47,647 nt of DNA from Candidatus Saccharimonadota bacterium (GTDB lineage Bacteria > Patescibacteriota > Saccharimonadia > Saccharimonadales > Saccharimonadaceae): the NCBI GenBank assembly GCA_030530605.1, contig JAUMUO010000003.1, positions 47,063 through 94,709 of the forward strand, written 5' to 3'. Within the stretch, counting starts at the first letter, position 1. Every line of letters begins with the position of its first letter. A model generated the notes under the pieces. The model was not told the DNA's origin and ran no database searches. It saw only the letters and a program-made list of their open reading frames with translations. The translations under genes were made by a program, and so were the position numbers. Shown one piece after another: positions 5,508-21,939 of this stretch.

Positions 5508-6135
5508 CTAAACTCCTTTTCTCTATTATATCACGGTCTTTCTTCAGGTTTTTTGTAATAATCGCAACATAGGCATTGTAGCCGAGCTTTTTTAAGGTGA
5601 AAAGCGCCAGCAAAATCGCCGCCCAAGTAATAATAGATGAAACTGTACCGGCCAGCGCCACACCAGAGCCAAAAATCGTGGTAAGAATAGGTGTGAGGAG
5701 AGCCGTGCCGCAGGTCGGGCAGCCAGAGCCGAGCACCGCCAAAATCGCCACGATGCCGGAATTCTGGACCGAGGCAGAATTATCGGTGCCTTTTTTGCTA
5801 TATTTAATGGTTACAACGAGAAGGCCAATTAAAAACCCTTGAAGTAGGGCGAGCAGGAAAATTCCTAGCCAGTCAATAAAATTCCGATTAATACCAAAAG
5901 TCTGCAAGAAAGCATCCCAGATTACCTTGAGTCCATCCGGAAAACCCATCGCGCTGATAAGATTAAAGGCGGCAAAACCGCCAGAAAGAAGATTGAGCAG
6001 TGTACCAAAGATACAAAAAGTCGGTACAAAACCAAACCAGAAATGTTTCTCTTTGGTGGCGAGCAAAATTCCGCGCACGGAAAACTTGCCGTGCTCCCAC
6101 CACTCATCAAAATGCCTTTTTACTCCACTTGTCAT
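5491..6135 (-). CDS. Polytopic membrane protein with CPTC motif, DsbA-linked
   Basis: I do not recognise a characterised family. The 214-residue protein has a hydrophilic, Trp-rich N-terminus and about four membrane segments (roughly 34-60, 88-111, 127-147 and 150-183). A GSGCPTCG motif (C139, C142) sits at the edge of the third segment. Its 3' end overlaps a DsbA-like gene by 17 bases. A CxxC at a membrane boundary next to DsbA suggests the role played elsewhere by DsbB or VKOR, re-oxidising the thiol oxidase, but the second cysteine pair of those families is absent (only C41). The start ATG follows TATAAT 6142-6147 by 6 bases, so the mRNA is predicted leaderless. Confidence 0.7.
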   Translation of the reverse strand: MTSGVKRHFDEWWEHGKFSVRGILLATKEKHFWFGFVPTFCIFGTLLNLLSGGFAAFNLISAMGFPDGLKVIWDAFLQTFGINRNFIDWLGIFLLALLQGFLIGLLVVTIKYSKKGTDNSASVQNSGIVAILAVLGSGCPTCGTALLTPILTTIFGSGVALAGTVSSIITWAAILLALFTLKKLGYNAYVAIITKNLKKDRDIIEKRSLDEKRN

Positions 6136-6157
6136 ATGGATATTATATCACAAGCGT

Positions 6158-7939
6158 TTAATTTTCGTCTAGGAAGGCACCAGACTGGCGAGACCAGAGT
6201 TTGGCGTAGACACCGCCTTTTTTCAGAAGTTCGGCGTGGGAGCCGGATTCGGCAATTTTGCCATCTTTTAGAACAATGATACGATCTAAATCCATCACTG
6301 TTGAAAGACGGTGAGCAATCACAATGGCAGTGCGACCCTTAATTAGTTCACGAAGTGCGTCTTGAATTAAAGCTTCCGACTCCGAGTCAAGCGCTGAAGT
6401 AGCCTCGTCTAATACTAGAACTGGGGCATTTTTCAGAATCGCGCGGGCGATGGCAATTCTCTGTCTTTGACCACCAGAAAGTTTAATACCCCGCTCACCG
6501 ACTAGCGTTTCATAACCATTTGGCAAAACTTTAATAAACTCATCAGCATTGGCAAGTTTTGCGGCGTGCTCTATTTCGGCAAAAGTGGCATCTGGTCTTC
6601 CGTAGGAAATGTTCTCGGCAATAGAACGATGGAAGAGCGCAGTTTCCTGCGGAACATAGGCGATATTTTTGCGCAGAGAGTCTTGAGTGACATATTTGAT
6701 ATTTTGCCCATCAATAGAAATCTCACCTTCGTCCACATCGGCAAATCTTAGTAGCAGCTTAGTCAAAGTGGTTTTGCCGGAACCGGAAACCCCGACGAGC
6801 CCGATGCGTTCGCCCGGTTTAATATCAAGGGTGAAGTTTTCAAAGATAGCTTCCTTAGCATCGTGATGTTTAAAGGCAATATCATCAAACTTAATGCTAG
6901 CATCTTTAATTTCAAGCTTGGTTGCGCCTGGCATATCTACAACGTCATCTTCTAGATCTAAGATTTCAGTCATCTGCTTGGCATCACTAAAAACTCGTTT
7001 AGTGTCCTTCAAAAGACCAGTAATATCCCAAAGCCGATCCATCACTTGCCAAGTATATGAAATTATCAAGAACAGAAGTGAAATCGGCATACCCCAATAC
7101 AAACCACCTAATACTAAAGCGACAACACCAACTGTATTAATTGCTATGTAGACTATATCGTATTTAATATTGCGTAAAATGTTAGCACGCATGAAGTTTA
7201 AAGTGGCCACACGTTGTTTGTGCGCATAATCTGCATAGCGCTTGCGCTCGTGGTTTTCTCTAGCATAAGACTTCACGGCGTTAATATTACTGATTGAATC
7301 AGCAAGTTGACCAGTAGCCTTAGACTCTGACTCGGACATCTTGTTGCTTAATTCGTTCATTTTCTTTGAGGTTAGAACAGATATAGCAATGAAAATGCAC
7401 ACAAAAATCACTAGGCTCACTGCATACGCTGGGACCTTGAAAGATAGCACAACCACTACCGAAATTATGTCGGTAGCTAGCGGCACCAGATTCCAAACTA
7501 TCATATCCATTAATCTTTCATAAGCGCGTACGAATTGGTTAGTTTGAGAAACTAGAGAGCCAGAAAAACGATTAACATGGAATTGCATAGATTGATAGCA
7601 GATAGTATTGAAGGCCATGTTGGCCAAATCATACATGCCTAAAATTTCTGATTTCCAGTTACAAAAAGTTCGTAATTGCCCAATAGCCTGAGCCGATACA
7701 TACGACACAATCGCCAATATAGCTTTTGGAAAGACAATCTTAGCGGCTTCATCGGTTGGAAGACCTTGTGAAAGCCCTTCTATTATATCGGAAATTAGGA
7801 GAGTAAGAATAGTATTTCTAAGTAATATTACAGCAATTTGCCCGAAAACGGCACCAAAATTATACCAACCGTATTTCTTGGTAATTTGCCAGTAGTAATA
7901 CAACGTCCGGCGAGTGGTATTTGGTTTTTTCTTACTCAT
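6158..7939 (-). CDS. ABC exporter with fused membrane and ATPase domains
   Basis: Half-transporter of the MsbA/LmrA type, 593 residues. An N-terminal six-helix membrane domain (to about residue 310) is followed by a nucleotide-binding domain with Walker A GVSGSGKTT, signature LSGGQRQR and Walker B VLVLDEATS. It probably works as a dimer at the inner membrane; the substrate is unknown. An in-frame ATG 12 codons upstream exists, but the promoter (TTGCAA 7970-7975, 17-base spacer, TATAAT 7947-7952) places transcription start at the ATG at 7939, which encodes MSKKKP. I therefore take 7939 as the start, with a leaderless mRNA. Confidence 0.9.
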   Translation of the reverse strand: MSKKKPNTTRRTLYYYWQITKKYGWYNFGAVFGQIAVILLRNTILTLLISDIIEGLSQGLPTDEAAKIVFPKAILAIVSYVSAQAIGQLRTFCNWKSEILGMYDLANMAFNTICYQSMQFHVNRFSGSLVSQTNQFVRAYERLMDMIVWNLVPLATDIISVVVVLSFKVPAYAVSLVIFVCIFIAISVLTSKKMNELSNKMSESESKATGQLADSISNINAVKSYARENHERKRYADYAHKQRVATLNFMRANILRNIKYDIVYIAINTVGVVALVLGGLYWGMPISLLFLIISYTWQVMDRLWDITGLLKDTKRVFSDAKQMTEILDLEDDVVDMPGATKLEIKDASIKFDDIAFKHHDAKEAIFENFTLDIKPGERIGLVGVSGSGKTTLTKLLLRFADVDEGEISIDGQNIKYVTQDSLRKNIAYVPQETALFHRSIAENISYGRPDATFAEIEHAAKLANADEFIKVLPNGYETLVGERGIKLSGGQRQRIAIARAILKNAPVLVLDEATSALDSESEALIQDALRELIKGRTAIVIAHRLSTVMDLDRIIVLKDGKIAESGSHAELLKKGGVYAKLWSRQSGAFLDEN

Positions 7940-15864: not shown

Positions 15865-16569
15865 TTATTCTTTGTTTTCTTCAGCAGATTCTTCTTCTGG
15901 CTTACTACCATTGTCGGACGGAACATCAGCAGCTTCAGTGGTTTCACCAGCGGCGGCAGCAGCAGCGGCGGCAGCTTCTTCGGCCTCACGGGCAGCAGCT
16001 TCAGCGGCCGGGTCGTAAATACTGGCGACAACCTGGTCAGAGGAAAGCTCTTTATCGGCGAGTTCTACACCCTTCGGGAGGACGAGGTCAGCGACGGTGA
16101 GCTTATCATCAAGAGTGGCAAACTTAGAAGCGTCGGCGACGATTTTCTCCGGAAGGTCGGCCGGCTTAGCCTTGACTTCGATTTCTTCCATAACCTGAAG
16201 CACGACGTAGTGAAGCTTGTTAGCCTCGGAAGTCTCAAAGCCTTCAAGAACGATTGGGGTAGTAGCCTCAATCGCCTTATCAGCGGAGACGGCCTGGAAC
16301 TCTACGTTCATCAGCTTTCTAGAAACCGGGTTAATATCAACATTTTTAACGATTGCGAGCTGTTTCTTACCAGCGATGTCGAGATCAAGAGTGGAGTGAT
16401 AACCAGCTAGGCTAAGAGCCTTTTTGATTTCATTATATTCACCCTGAACCATAACAGGCTCGGACTCACCACCATAAACGACAGCCGGGACTTTACCAGC
16501 ATCACGGAGCGCAGCTAGCTTTTTGCCAGCAACTTCACGCTTCTCTAAAGACAACTTAATATCTGCCAT
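15865..16569 (-). CDS. rplY: 50S ribosomal protein L25 (CTC form)
   Basis: Binds 5S rRNA. The 234-residue protein has the N-terminal L25 domain (about 1-90, start MADIKLSLEKREVAGKK) and the TL5/CTC C-terminal domain (about 95-185), then a low-complexity acidic tail rich in Ala and Glu with a run of nine Ala. The promoter is TTGCAA 16621-16626, 17-base spacer, TAAAAT 16598-16603, with a leader of about 20-25 bases and AAGGA before the ATG, so this is one of the Shine-Dalgarno-led genes. Confidence 0.95.
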   Translation of the reverse strand: MADIKLSLEKREVAGKKLAALRDAGKVPAVVYGGESEPVMVQGEYNEIKKALSLAGYHSTLDLDIAGKKQLAIVKNVDINPVSRKLMNVEFQAVSADKAIEATTPIVLEGFETSEANKLHYVVLQVMEEIEVKAKPADLPEKIVADASKFATLDDKLTVADLVLPKGVELADKELSSDQVVASIYDPAAEAAAREAEEAAAAAAAAAGETTEAADVPSDNGSKPEEESAEENKE

Positions 16570-16637: not shown

Positions 16638-18446
16638 CTATTTTTTCTTGAGAGCTTCGGTGTTAGCAATCAGGCGCTGGCGGAAGGCTTCACGGGCAGT
16701 GTCACAGTTCTCGTTATTCCCCATCCAGGCGGTGAGTGCCGGGTCTTGGAGAGCACGGGCAAAGGAGAAGGTGACCGGCCACGGGAACGGACCATTATTC
16801 GTGACCTCCTGGAGATTCTCAGTAGCCTGAACCACGGTCTGGCCACCAGAGAGGAAGACCACGCCAGCCAAACTCTGGGGGACATGAGTGCGCAATACCT
16901 CGGCAGTGGCCCGCCCAACTTCCTCTTTGGAAGACGGGATAGGATACTGCTTGCCAGCAAGCACCATATTAACCTTTAAGATACATTGGTCAAGGCGAAC
17001 TTTTTCGCGATTCAAGGCATCGAAGAGAGTGTCAAGAATCTTGGCGGTAACATCTTTACTCTGTTCGAGAGTATAGTTACCGTCGTAAACTACCTCTGGC
17101 TCAACAATTGGGACCATCTTGGCATCCTGGCAGATGCGAGCGTATTTCGCGAGGTCGTTACAATTTCTTTCAATCGCCATATCGGACGGACGGCCCGGAG
17201 CGATTTCAAAGGCGGAGCGCCACTTACAGAAGCGAAGACCCATTTTGTAATACTCGGCAAGACGTTCTGGCAAATCATCTAAGCCTTTCGTGTATTTTTC
17301 CTCGGAATTTTCAAAGTTCTCGAGACCCTGGTCGACTTTGATGCCGGCCACAATGCCTTTAGAAGTGAGGAAAGAAACGAAATCACGGCCATCATCAGCC
17401 TTCTGGCGAGCAGTCTCATCAAAGAGAATTACACCAGAAACATATTTTTCTAAATCAGGAGTGGTAAAGAAGATGTTGCGGTAATCACGGCGGTGTTCCT
17501 CGTCATCGGGGATGCGCATATTTTCAAACTTCTTATGGATAGAACCGCCAGATTCATCGGCGGCAAGGATGCCTTTACCAGGGGTCATCAGAGTTTTAGC
17601 AATCATGGCGGTGTCGGCCTCTTCGGCACGAGCATTAGATAGTAATTCCTCCAACTTGTCTAGCGGGGCAGTGCCGTTTAAGGTCGAGCGGAGAGCGTTG
17701 TCGCGGGCCATCATAATAGAATCTTCAATAGACTTGCCGCGAAGAAGTGCGCCAAAGACGGTGGCGGCGATGATAGAATACAAGGTTAAATGTGTCATTA
17801 AATCGGCGTTTTCGGCGGACCAGATAATTTTAGCGTCGCCGAAGGTGATTTCGTGGTCGGAAATCTGACAAACAGAGCCGTAATATTTAGTGCCAGCGAG
17901 CAAACCATCGGAGAAGACAAGGTTAGCCATCTCAACGAGTTCGCGATCTGATTCCGACATTTCTTTCGGGGCATAAACCGCCAAACGGGTGTGGTTGGAC
18001 ATAGAAAGGAAACCTTTTAGGCCCTTGACTAGCTCTGGCGTGACTTTGGCAGAGCGGTCAATAAAGACCCAGTCCACAGCATCGGTAGGGTTGACCCACT
18101 CGGTATCCTCTCTACTTTCTGGTACAAGATAAGAAATCTTGTTCTCTTTACAGAGAATATAACGGGTGGTTTTAATTTCCTGCTCGCCCGGAATAATTTC
18201 GCCGTTTCTAAATTCGGCGAGGCTGCCGGAAATCTTGGCACTCGCGCCCATCCGGTTTAGAACCTCCAAAGCGACAGTGGCGCCGGCGTAAACCGTGGTG
18301 CTTTTTACAAATTTATGCGTACTCCCATCAAAGCCGAAATCAAGCCACGGGGTGCCATGCTCGTCGGTTTCGAACTTGTTTTGTTGTTCATCAAGGCGGA
18401 GATAGACATCTTGGTGAACATTCCCAATTATTAACACATTACTCAT
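16638..18446 (-). CDS. PfkB-fold (kinase-like) domain fused to class I fructose-bisphosphate aldolase
   Basis: A 602-residue fusion. Residues 1 to about 270 have the ribokinase/PfkB fold order: VLIIGNVHQDV, a sugar-site YAGATVALEVLNRMGA, and the C-terminal helix region. However, the anion-hole/catalytic GAGD motif expected near residues 211-225 is replaced by AENADLMTHL, so kinase activity is doubtful. Residues about 278-602 are a complete vertebrate-type class I aldolase: GILAADES (D297), KWRSAF (K408, R410), VEPEV (E449) and the Schiff-base lysine K491 in ILKVNMV. The aldolase splits fructose 1,6-bisphosphate into DHAP and glyceraldehyde 3-phosphate. TAAAAT 18453-18458 lies 6 bases before ATG. 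Confidence 0.9.
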   Translation of the reverse strand: MSNVLIIGNVHQDVYLRLDEQQNKFETDEHGTPWLDFGFDGSTHKFVKSTTVYAGATVALEVLNRMGASAKISGSLAEFRNGEIIPGEQEIKTTRYILCKENKISYLVPESREDTEWVNPTDAVDWVFIDRSAKVTPELVKGLKGFLSMSNHTRLAVYAPKEMSESDRELVEMANLVFSDGLLAGTKYYGSVCQISDHEITFGDAKIIWSAENADLMTHLTLYSIIAATVFGALLRGKSIEDSIMMARDNALRSTLNGTAPLDKLEELLSNARAEEADTAMIAKTLMTPGKGILAADESGGSIHKKFENMRIPDDEEHRRDYRNIFFTTPDLEKYVSGVILFDETARQKADDGRDFVSFLTSKGIVAGIKVDQGLENFENSEEKYTKGLDDLPERLAEYYKMGLRFCKWRSAFEIAPGRPSDMAIERNCNDLAKYARICQDAKMVPIVEPEVVYDGNYTLEQSKDVTAKILDTLFDALNREKVRLDQCILKVNMVLAGKQYPIPSSKEEVGRATAEVLRTHVPQSLAGVVFLSGGQTVVQATENLQEVTNNGPFPWPVTFSFARALQDPALTAWMGNNENCDTAREAFRQRLIANTEALKKK

Positions 18447-18491: not shown

Positions 18492-21365
18492 TTACAACAT
18501 CTGCTTGAGGTATTCACCAGTCGGGGTTTTGGCGGATTTGGCGAGAGCCTCTGGAGTGCCGGTGGCAATAATCTGGCCGCCACCCTGACCGCCTTCTGGG
18601 CCCATGTCAATCACCCAGTCCGCAGATTTGATGACGTGAAGATTGTGTTCGATAACAATCATAGAATTGCCGCCGTCTACAAGTTTATTTAAGATAGAGA
18701 GCAATCTCTTAACATCGTCAGTATGAAGACCAGTGGTCGGCTCATCCAAAATATAGAGAGTTTTGCCGGTGCTACGGCGAGCCAGCTCGGTGGCAAGTTT
18801 AATTCTCTGAGCCTCACCACCAGAGAAAGTGGTGGCCGGCTGGCCAAGACGAATATAGCCTAGCCCCACTTCTTGTAAGGTCTTTAATTTCGGAGCGATA
18901 CTCGGGATGTTTTCGAAGAATTCTACCGCCTCATCGATGGTCATATCAAGAACCTGGGAAATATCTTTGCCTTTATATTTAATCTCTAAGGCCTCGCGAT
19001 TATAGCGGCGACCGTGACAGGCCGGGCAAGTAACATAAACATCCGGCAGGAAGTGCATTTCAATCTTGTTGACGCCGTCACCCTGACAAGTTTCACAGCG
19101 ACCGCCCTTAACATTGAAAGAGAAGCGGCCGGCTTTATAGCCACGTACCTCGGACTCGGGCTGGTGGGCATAAAGTTCGCGGATTTGGTTGAATACGCCA
19201 GTATAAGTAGCCGGGTTGGAACGAGGGGTACGACCAATCGGTGACTGGTCTATTACAATACATTTATCAAGATTTTCGATGCCTTCAATTTTATCGTGAA
19301 GACCCGGCACAGTCTGGGCGCGGTGGAGACGAGCGAGCAGCTCGTTGGCTAAAATCTCGTTTACAAGCGTAGATTTACCAGAGCCAGAAACACCAGAAAC
19401 TACAGTCATAACACCAAGTGGGAAATGCGCATCAATGTTTTTTAAGTTGTTCTCGCGGGCACCACGGACCACCAGCTCCAAACCCTGTTTAGCCTTACGG
19501 CGCTTTTTAGGAGTTTCAATTTTCTCTTTGCCGGAAAGATAGCGGCCGGTGATAGAATCAGGATTTTTCATCACTTCTTCAGGAGTACCAGCAGCGACCA
19601 CTTCCCCACCATTGACGCCGGCGCCCGGACCAATATCAATTAAATAATCTGCTGAACGCATTGTATCTTCGTCGTGCTCGACAACGAGAACAGTATTTTT
19701 AAGGTCTCTTAGGTGCTTAAGTGTAGCAATAAGTTTATCGTTGTCTCTTTGGTGAAGGCCAATGGACGGCTCATCAAGAACATACAAAACCCCCTGGAGA
19801 CCAGAACCAATTTGAGTAGCGAGACGAATTCTTTGCGCCTCACCACCAGAAAGCGTGTTGGCAGCGCGCCCAAGCTCAATATAGCCAAGGCCGACATCTT
19901 TCATAAAACTCACGCGCTCTTTGATTTCTTTGATAATCGGGCCGGCGATTTGTTGCTCTTCATGAGAGAAACCAAAATCACCCTCTAAAACATCTAGAAC
20001 GTGGTCCACATCAAGGCTACAGACATCAACGATGTTGAGGCCGTGGATAGTGACAGCGAGAACCACCGGCTTTAATCTAGCTCCGTGACAGGTTTGGCAC
20101 TCTTTGATACGCATAAAACGCTCAATATCTTTGCGAATAAAATCTGAGTCGGTTTCTCTGTAGCGGCGTTCCAAAGTCGGGATAACACCCTCGTAAGTGG
20201 TTTCATAGGTGGTGCCTTTAGCAAACTTGCCGGAGCCACCAATTAAAACGCGGTATTTTTCTTCACCGGTACCATATAAGATAATATGTTTAGTTTCTTC
20301 AGAAAACTGGTTAATCGGCGTATAAATATCAAACTTATGTTTCTTGCCTACGCTGTCTAGCCGACGTAGCCACCAGGAATCTTGCGAGACACGGTTGAAC
20401 GGGCGGATGCCACCCTCGGCGATGGTGAGATTTTCGTTGAAAATTAGATTTGGATCTACTTCCATGCGCGAGCCAAGACCGGTACAAGTTGGGCAGGCGC
20501 CCTGCGGGGCGTTGAAGGAAAAGAGGCGTGGCTCTAATTCCGGGATGAGCTCGTCTGGGTGATTTGGACAGGCATAGCGCTGGGAGAAAGTGTAAATTTC
20601 GGTGTTATCTTTGCCAGGATTTTCGGAAACAGAGGTAGAATTATCAGTGATTTTTAAGAGTTTGATGATTCCCTGGCCAAGTTCCAAGGCCTGTTCAACT
20701 GAGCCGGCAATACGCGAACGAAGGTCCGGGCTTAAAATGAAGCGATCCACCACGATTTCAATATCGTGTTTTTCTTGCTTCTTTAGCTCCGGGAATTCAT
20801 CGAGAGCATAAACAATACCATCTACTCTTACGCGGGAGAAACCTTTGGCAATATATTGCTCGGAGATGTGTTGAAATTCACCTTTTTTAGCCTGGACGAT
20901 AGGAGCTAAAAGCATCAATTTAGAACCGAGCGGGAGTTTCATTACTTCTTCAACAATATCTTCGTTGGTCCTTCGCGTAACCTCAGAGTGGCAAATCGGA
21001 CAGTGCGGGACGCCAACGCGGGCAAAAAGCAAACGAAGATAATCATAAATTTCGGTAACGGTTGCAACAGTGGAACGAGGGTTTCTAGAAGTCGATTTTT
21101 GGTCAATAGAAATGGCCGGCGAAAGACCAGTGATAGTATCAACATCTGGTTTATCCATTACCCCGAGGAACATCCGAGCATAAGACGAGAGGCTTTCGAC
21201 ATATCTTCTCTGGCCCTCGGCGTAAATCGTATCAAAAGCCAAGCTCGACTTGCCAGAGCCGGAAAGTCCAGTTAAAACTACGAGTTTATCACGCGGGATG
21301 TCGACGTCGATGTTTTTCAAATTGTGTTGGCGGCAACCGCGAATTTTAATCATATTATCGCTCAT
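18492..21365 (-). CDS. uvrA: Excinuclease ABC subunit A
   Basis: Damage-recognition ATPase of nucleotide excision repair, 957 residues. Two ABC modules are seen (Walker [10 protein letters not shown] and GVSGSGKST; signatures [12 protein letters not shown] and [12 protein letters not shown]), plus zinc modules with CPIC...CPNH and CETC...CPAC. The frame continues 42 codons upstream, but those codons cross a terminator hairpin (21422-21452) and read as low-quality sequence; the ATG at 21365 (MSDNMIKI) is the conserved start. TATAAT 21376-21381 gives a leader of only about six bases. Confidence 0.96.
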
Positions 21366-21421
21366 AAAAACTCGTATAATTATACTCCTTTTTAGGAAAA
21401 AAGTCCAGCATGGCCAAATGA

Positions 21422-21452
21422 AAAACGACGCTTTAATTTCAAGCGTCGTTTT
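21422..21452 (-). terminator. Intrinsic terminator of the orphan gene at 21460
   Basis: Inverted repeat AAAACGACGCTT / AAGCGTCGTTTT with a 7-base loop, directly after the stop codon on the minus strand and followed by a T-rich stretch. It separates this gene from the uvrA promoter. Confidence 0.85.
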
Positions 21453-21459
21453 CTTGCGA

Positions 21460-21939
21460 CTAGATAAAAGCCGACATATTGAATGCGGCATTTTCCTTCT
21501 CTGCGAGATATTTCTTTACGTCGTCGTCAGTCATATAATACTGTGACATTCTGCCGTAGTCTTTTCTCTCACTCCTACTTAAAATAAGTGGACCATATTT
21601 CCAGTGGACAACCAAAAGGTTTCTAGCCCAGCTATAAGAGGCTCCACTGTTGCCACACTTCGTATCAGCCAACCGTTCGCACTCATCTACGAGCGCCTGA
21701 TTCAACTTGTGACCCTTCTTCATTTCGTTTTCCATGAGCCGGGCCCAATTTTCAGTAAACTCAACAAGGGAAATATACTTTTGGTTGCTGATCCTTACGT
21801 TCTCAAAGCTGTGCTCCGCTTCAGGAGAAGCAAACGTCATACGGGGGGCATTAACAAGTTCCTTTTCAAGATCTTTTGCTGAGACCTGTTTAGGAAAAAT
21901 CCGCTCCGAACGACTTTTAGCAAAAAATTTTTTAAACAT
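21460..21939 (-). CDS. Orphan cytoplasmic protein under a long structured leader
   Basis: Not recognised. I take ATG 21939 ([12 protein letters not shown]) because AAGGAGGT lies 7 bases upstream (21947-21954); an ATG 12 codons earlier would put the start inside the leader structure. The 159-residue product is charged and soluble with no membrane segment; a Trp/Tyr-rich central part ([18 protein letters not shown]) may form a small domain. It has one promoter (22084-22112), a leader of about 138 bases and its own terminator, so it is a self-contained regulated unit. No function is proposed. Confidence 0.72.

Follow-up and report, generated by a model that had tools for sequence, protein, structure and literature searches.

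A predicted pseudokinase domain of PfkB fold, fused to a class I aldolase in Saccharibacteria, outlasts the aldolase in several lineages

The window analyzed here, a stretch of 47,647 nucleotides from a Candidatus Saccharimonadota bacterium, encodes a class I fructose-bisphosphate aldolase that is fused to an N-terminal domain of predicted PfkB/ribokinase fold. Judged from its motifs, this domain is a pseudokinase and not a hidden phosphofructokinase. What is new here is that the pseudokinase outlasts the aldolase in several lineages, in which the latter was lost, decayed or, in one case, was replaced by a class II enzyme. Because evolution keeps the domain in relatives that have no aldolase, the dead kinase of these tiny gut bacteria probably serves a purpose other than the fused enzyme. 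Its persistence without the aldolase shows a function as such, and a role in sensing would be a further step beyond this.

The fused gene and the fold of its two halves

An aldolase fused to a PfkB-fold domain had been predicted from the sequence alone, and this was confirmed. The open reading frame of 602 aa occupies exactly positions 16638–18446 of the minus strand (Table 1). The fusion is neither due to chance nor an assembly artefact, since it is found in dozens of species of the same genus and of sister genera. A contig scan revealed only three near relatives, which come from ruminant gut assemblies, and the L25/CTC-type gene adjoins the pseudokinase domain in several relatives, too.

Table 1. 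Features of the fused gene and its surroundings; positions refer to the window unless a locus is given
Feature	Position	Strand	Basis
Whole fused gene, 602 aa	16638..18446	(-)	ORF list; ATG start, stop codon within span
PfkB/ribokinase-fold pseudokinase domain (predicted), residues 1-275	17622..18446	(-)	AlphaFold2 and VIA-align; no Pfam match
Class I fructose-bisphosphate aldolase domain (predicted), residues 281-600	16647..17606	(-)	PF00274, NF033379, catalytic residues
THLTLYS (residues 218-224) in place of DRTGAGD	17775..17795	(-)	Alignment with 16 intact kinases
D13, substrate-side Asp of the PfkB fold, retained	18408..18410	(-)	75/75 pseudokinases and all kinases
R95, lid strand	18162..18164	(-)	75/75 pseudokinases; intact-kinase column mostly W/Y
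D130-R131-S132 loop, pseudokinase-specific motif	18051..18059	(-)	D 75/75, R 71/75, S 74/75
K491, aldolase Schiff-base lysine	16974..16976	(-)	ILKVNM motif
uvrA, upstream neighbour, same strand	18492..21491	(-)	ORF list; identity from sequence inspection
Ribosomal protein L25/CTC-type gene, downstream neighbour	15865..16569	(-)	ORF list; identity from sequence inspection
Loci with the order triosephosphate isomerase/pseudokinase/L25	L128:6278-7894, L143:4951-6588, L144:4803-6437, L145:2979-4627

By profile and catalytic residues, the C-terminal half represents a class I fructose-bisphosphate aldolase in full, and cleavage activity is predicted for it. Residues 281–600 match PF00274 with an E-value of 5.8e-113 in the Pfam profile search (377.7 bits against a cut-off of 22.2) and exceed the curated NCBIfam cut-off of NF033379 (400.7 against 250 bits). 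All nine catalytic positions that were checked are present (9/9), namely D297, K408, R410, E449 and K491, each where the original prediction had placed it, and in addition K370, E451, S533 and R564. The closest solved structures are apicomplexan and animal aldolases.

The N-terminal half (residues 1–275) is not matched by any Pfam or NCBIfam profile at E ≤ 1, and this includes PF00294 of the PfkB family carbohydrate kinases, whose sole match in the genome of the window is a separate kinase, PfkB-A. AlphaFold2 modelled the full-length protein with a pLDDT of 93.3, using an alignment of its own and related loci. Since the fold search with this model returned overwhelmingly aldolases, the N-domain was modelled separately (pLDDT 95.0, pTM 0.92). 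Superposition of the latter model by VIA-align gave Z-scores of 18.3–19.8 across 234–258 residues with dozens of PfkB-family structures, among them ketohexokinase (Z 19.8), ribokinase (Z 19.6), sulfofructose kinase and adenosine kinase, and Foldseek yielded a best E-value of 6.2e-12. The N-domain hence has a PfkB/ribokinase fold, in agreement with the layout initially read from the sequence.

Lost kinase motifs and conserved residues

To locate the kinase motifs, the N-domain was aligned with 16 intact relatives that carry the sequence DRTGAGDAFAS. The GAGD columns correspond to T221-L222-Y223-S224 in the protein of the window, and the column of the catalytic aspartate is thus occupied by S224, a serine being present there in most of the pseudokinase clade. 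The loss of GAGD and aspartate had been predicted correctly; the proposed ADLMTHL comprises residues 214–220 and the GAGD columns comprise residues 221–224. In the window's genus and in the sister genus g8, none of the aligned pseudokinases has the catalytic aspartate in the GAGD columns, and the anion hole and the N-x-x-E and TDG motifs are likewise missing throughout both, which supports the pseudokinase alternative of the original prediction. Large deletions are also apparent in the alignment, the pseudokinase lacking about 60 residues that intact kinases have.

A GAGD-like site elsewhere in the domain had been named as an observation that would speak against this assignment. Such a string occurs in none of the 88 pseudokinase domains (0/88); the motif set of 89 sequences additionally contained the intact kinase L066, which is the source of its single GAGD match. 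The proposed search for an acidic residue replacing the catalytic aspartate was carried out by alignment and was equally negative, as columns 220–222 and 225–231 are devoid of acidic residues in all 89 sequences. D215 was considered as a substitute acid and rejected, being acidic in 71 of the 89 sequences, variable, and situated nine residues ahead of the catalytic column.

Residue conservation was assessed in 75 pseudokinases, comprising 58 fused, 10 stand-alone and 7 sequences with a decayed aldolase. G8, D13, Y15, W34, F39, G55, R95 and D130 are invariant in all of them, including the 17 sequences in which the aldolase is lost or decayed. E26, S132 and T218 (74/75 each), R131 (71/75) and N250 are nearly invariant, while identity of the N-domain to the window's protein falls to 26–45% in most members. 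At position 54, which forms a GG motif with G55, the window's protein carries an alanine and most pseudokinases a glycine. In PfkB-family proteins, the positions of D13 and G55 belong to the substrate-binding side of the cleft. In comparison with the intact kinases, R95, R131 and S132 are peculiar to the pseudokinases; by the alignment, R95, D130-R131-S132 and T218 are newly gained conserved residues on the sugar side of the cleft, in addition to the key residues retained there. Judging from alignment and secondary structure, the retained and the gained residues may line a single pocket.

Ancestry of the domain and its persistence without the aldolase

The distribution of the domain was analyzed in 295 genomes of the class and in a genus-wide scan of 174 genomes, within the limits set by metagenome-assembled genomes. 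Within the window's genus it is found in 163 of 174 genomes and in 107 of the 110 good ones, across which it is commoner than the aldolase.

Other genera of the family possess an intact kinase, here termed PfkB-B, which occurs alone (about 335 aa; L040, L045), with an extra N-terminal part (about 500 aa; several loci within L034 to L046) or, in genus g6, joined to an aldolase of class I (L043, L064-L066). The extra part of about 160 aa is found in several genera (e.g. L034:151-640) and has no Pfam match; it also forms an ORF of its own directly before PfkB-B (L135:6869-7390) and, in genus g6, stands alone in an operon (L134:6728-7186), PfkB-B being located elsewhere and fused to the aldolase.

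The profile of the pseudokinases scores 47–70 bits against PfkB-B, compared to at most 8.6 bits against the other paralog PfkB-A. This profile similarity and a common N-terminal signature place the domain in the same lineage as PfkB-B, and the fusion to an aldolase of one and the same clade is shared with the g6 protein. PfkB-B differs in that DRTGAGDAFAS and the other kinase motifs are present. Close homologs with a normal motif had been listed as evidence against a degenerate kinase; intact relatives do exist, the g6 fusion included, but they are distant, as the N-domains are only 18–20% identical. The pseudokinases form a single clade with a support of 100 in the N-domain tree, although long branches obscure where they belong among the kinases. 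The aldolase domains of the g6, g4, g18, g1 and g8 fusions likewise form one clade (support 96) when compared with further class I aldolases from the class, and within this clade the g6 fusion with its intact kinase branches first. A grouping of the pseudokinase clade with the g6 fusion was not recovered in the free tree and was not rejected by the AU test (p 0.30). One fusion followed by loss of the kinase would be the simplest history, and the pseudokinase domain appears to descend from a once-active PfkB-B that survives intact in sister genera.

Stand-alone pseudokinase genes of 261–271 aa are present in the genomes G184, G361, G348, G364, G381, G151, G139 and G188, in none of which a class I or class II aldolase was found. 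In G115, G168, G167, G252, G383, G370 and G301, the domain is followed by in-frame but catalytically broken aldolase remnants; at L058 and L059 (G115, G168), L051 (G167), L149 (G383), L151 (G301) and L152 (G370), the catalytic residues are lost while the frame is open. It is possible that these ORFs, one pair of which has an omega of 0.13, encode pseudokinase-pseudoaldolase proteins. On the tree, the fused and the unfused state changed at least seven times among the pseudokinases, a count that takes in the uncertain state of G201 as well as g29, which perhaps was never fused; at least five independent aldolase losses would be the safer statement. G201 itself was dropped as a case of aldolase loss since the contig ends within its ORF, and short frames that end at contig edges were also seen in G408, G411, G417, G416 and G296. 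Furthermore, G250 harbors, besides an intact fusion, a second class I aldolase copy with six stop codons, i.e. a pseudogene (contig 7, 99735-100712; L071).

In close pairs, the pseudokinase is under strong purifying selection (omega 0.03–0.11) whether or not an aldolase is present. For the stand-alone genes, the Nei-Gojobori method gave omega values of 0.088 (G361/G184), 0.095 (G361/G348), 0.036 (G364/G381) and 0.032 (G188/G139, with dS near saturation), compared to 0.05–0.11 for the domain within fused proteins. More distant stand-alone pairs ranged from 0.14 to 0.29, synonymous sites being saturated in some pairs. In proteins with a decayed aldolase, omega of the domain versus the remnant amounted to 0.17 versus 0.36, 0.24 versus 0.80 and 0.09 versus 0.13, the domain being the more constrained part in each case.

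In G222, a class II aldolase ORF takes the place of the aldolase domain close to the L25 gene, and the pseudokinase is kept; both ORFs (L126:5019-5900 and 5893-6855) overlap by 8 bases. The domain is therefore tied to aldolase function wherever an aldolase is present, and its independence of an aldolase is apparent from the species that have none. The stand-alone pseudokinase of the clade without aldolase is adjacent to triosephosphate isomerase in divergent and to the L25 gene in convergent orientation. Intact kinase, fused pseudokinase and stand-alone pseudokinase together constitute a rare series, which allows one to ask what role a pseudoenzyme takes on after catalysis.

Sugar-phosphate metabolism, possible roles and known systems

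According to the usual description, Saccharibacteria have no phosphofructokinase and use a pentose-phosphate bypass (PMC6031116, PMC8386444). No phosphofructokinase of the pfkA type (PF00365) was found in the window's genome or in 70 relatives, which fits the lack of pfkA assumed in the original prediction, while 65 of the 71 genomes have a PfkB match. A separate standard pfkA, which had been considered a finding that would speak against a kinase role of the fused domain, is thus missing, but the genome does possess a separate intact PfkB, namely PfkB-A (325 aa, DTTGAGDSF), in a GAPDH-RpiB-Rpe-PfkB cluster. This protein reaches no NCBIfam equivalog cut-off. Its counterpart by operon position, a PfkB next to the aldolase in TM7x (TM7x_02415, Nanosynbacter lyticus), has already been proposed as a PfkB-type phosphofructokinase (PMC12815258) and is a gene of its own, unlike the fused domain. 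Since an intact PfkB is encoded separately, the fused domain need not be the phosphofructokinase. PfkB-A and a working aldolase were not found in G139, G188 and G252, in which the pseudokinase domain is kept.

In those genomes of the window's genus that were sampled, neither of the bypass enzymes transketolase and transaldolase was found. Transaldolase was found in 0 of 26 genomes and transketolase in 5 of 31, which are precisely those with intact PfkB-B and include none with the pseudokinase; this association is statistically weak because both losses may be one joint event. The cluster of the sister genera is longer and encodes GAPDH, RpiB, Rpe, a two-subunit transketolase, a class II aldolase, PfkB-A and PfkB-B. 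A pathway that has transketolase but no transaldolase requires an aldolase and a kinase for sedoheptulose 7-phosphate, and PfkB-B is a candidate for this kinase. In cellulolytic clostridia, a sedoheptulose 1,7-bisphosphate route indeed replaces transaldolase (PMC7029132), and like the operon of the sister genera it combines transketolase, a phosphofructokinase-type kinase and an aldolase without transaldolase. By analogy, PfkB-B possibly stands in for transaldolase as a sedoheptulose-7-phosphate kinase. The kinase of the clostridial route and PfkB-B presumably belong to different kinase families.

On this basis, we give about even chances to a phosphosugar-sensing pseudokinase that is derived from PfkB-B, is fused to a working class I aldolase and has a role beyond that aldolase. 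The ancestral PfkB-B would have acted beside transketolase and aldolase, possibly on sedoheptulose 7-phosphate, would then have been joined to a class I aldolase and would have ceased to act as a kinase at about the time when transketolase was lost. Its cleft may still bind a sugar or sugar phosphate without phosphorylating it, and binding may serve as a signal, which an aldolase, fused or co-encoded, would receive if present and a different partner in species without aldolase. Regulation of the aldolase, as originally suggested, may hold, but it is insufficient, since purifying selection maintains the domain even in species that have neither a class I nor a class II aldolase. A broader formulation, to which we lean only tentatively and at slightly less than even chances, is that of a new, nearly genus-universal and aldolase-independent protein of Saccharibacteria, either a sensor of sugar phosphates or an enzyme of a new kind, which began as a kinase in a pentose pathway lacking transaldolase and whose chemistry was lost together with transketolase. 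If true, the domain would control or perform something that is needed more widely than the aldolase.

The conserved residues also bear on the question whether the remodelled cleft has acquired a new, non-kinase catalysis on a sugar phosphate (e.g. as isomerase, phosphatase or lyase) that is independent of the aldolase. Invariant D13, R95 and D130 and near-invariant S132, T218 and N250 in a fast-diverging scaffold resemble an active site equally well, and the domain survives without the aldolase; yet H219 varies and the structural matches listed are PfkB-family kinases, which offer no precedent among them, so that we regard this reading as unlikely. A purely structural aid to the aldolase in folding, oligomerisation or localisation, with no small ligand, would be in line with the fusion in most species and with the overlapping ORFs that join the domain to a class II aldolase in G222. 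We consider it quite unlikely in view of the low omega (0.03–0.11) in species without any class I or II aldolase and of the invariant residues at substrate-side positions of the PfkB fold.

The divergent phosphofructokinase of the original prediction, handing fructose 1,6-bisphosphate to the fused aldolase, is very improbable. Glycolysis needs such an enzyme, the genome yielded no match for pfkA, transketolase or transaldolase, and a sister genus does fuse an intact kinase to the same aldolase; however, the aspartate, the anion hole and the ATP-site motifs are gone genus-wide with no acidic substitute for the aspartate, and the genome encodes a separate intact PfkB whose TM7x counterpart is the proposed phosphofructokinase (PMC12815258). 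A passive, disappearing remnant of the lost kinase is scarcely credible. Although the domain evolves faster than the aldolase (dN 0.102 versus 0.033 in the closest pair) and has suffered large deletions compared to the kinase, the purifying selection in close pairs largely refutes this idea, as does its occurrence in 107 of the 110 good genomes, where it is more widespread than the aldolase.

Among the papers that we could search, there was no report of a PfkB-aldolase fusion or of a PfkB pseudokinase in Patescibacteria. Fusions of a PfkB kinase with an aldolase are known as NF047869 (5-dehydro-2-deoxygluconokinase/aldolase) and NF041633 (KHG/KDPG aldolase/sugar kinase), but these involve other aldolases and, by their NCBIfam names, both halves are enzymes, whereas the kinase half of the window's protein is predicted to be dead. 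A precedent for a non-metabolic role is provided by the plant fructokinase-like proteins FLN1 and FLN2, PfkB-family members of the plastid RNA polymerase complex (PMC3409070). Being eukaryotic, lacking an aldolase fusion and having an unrelated partner, they are likened to the pseudokinase described here as a functional precedent only.
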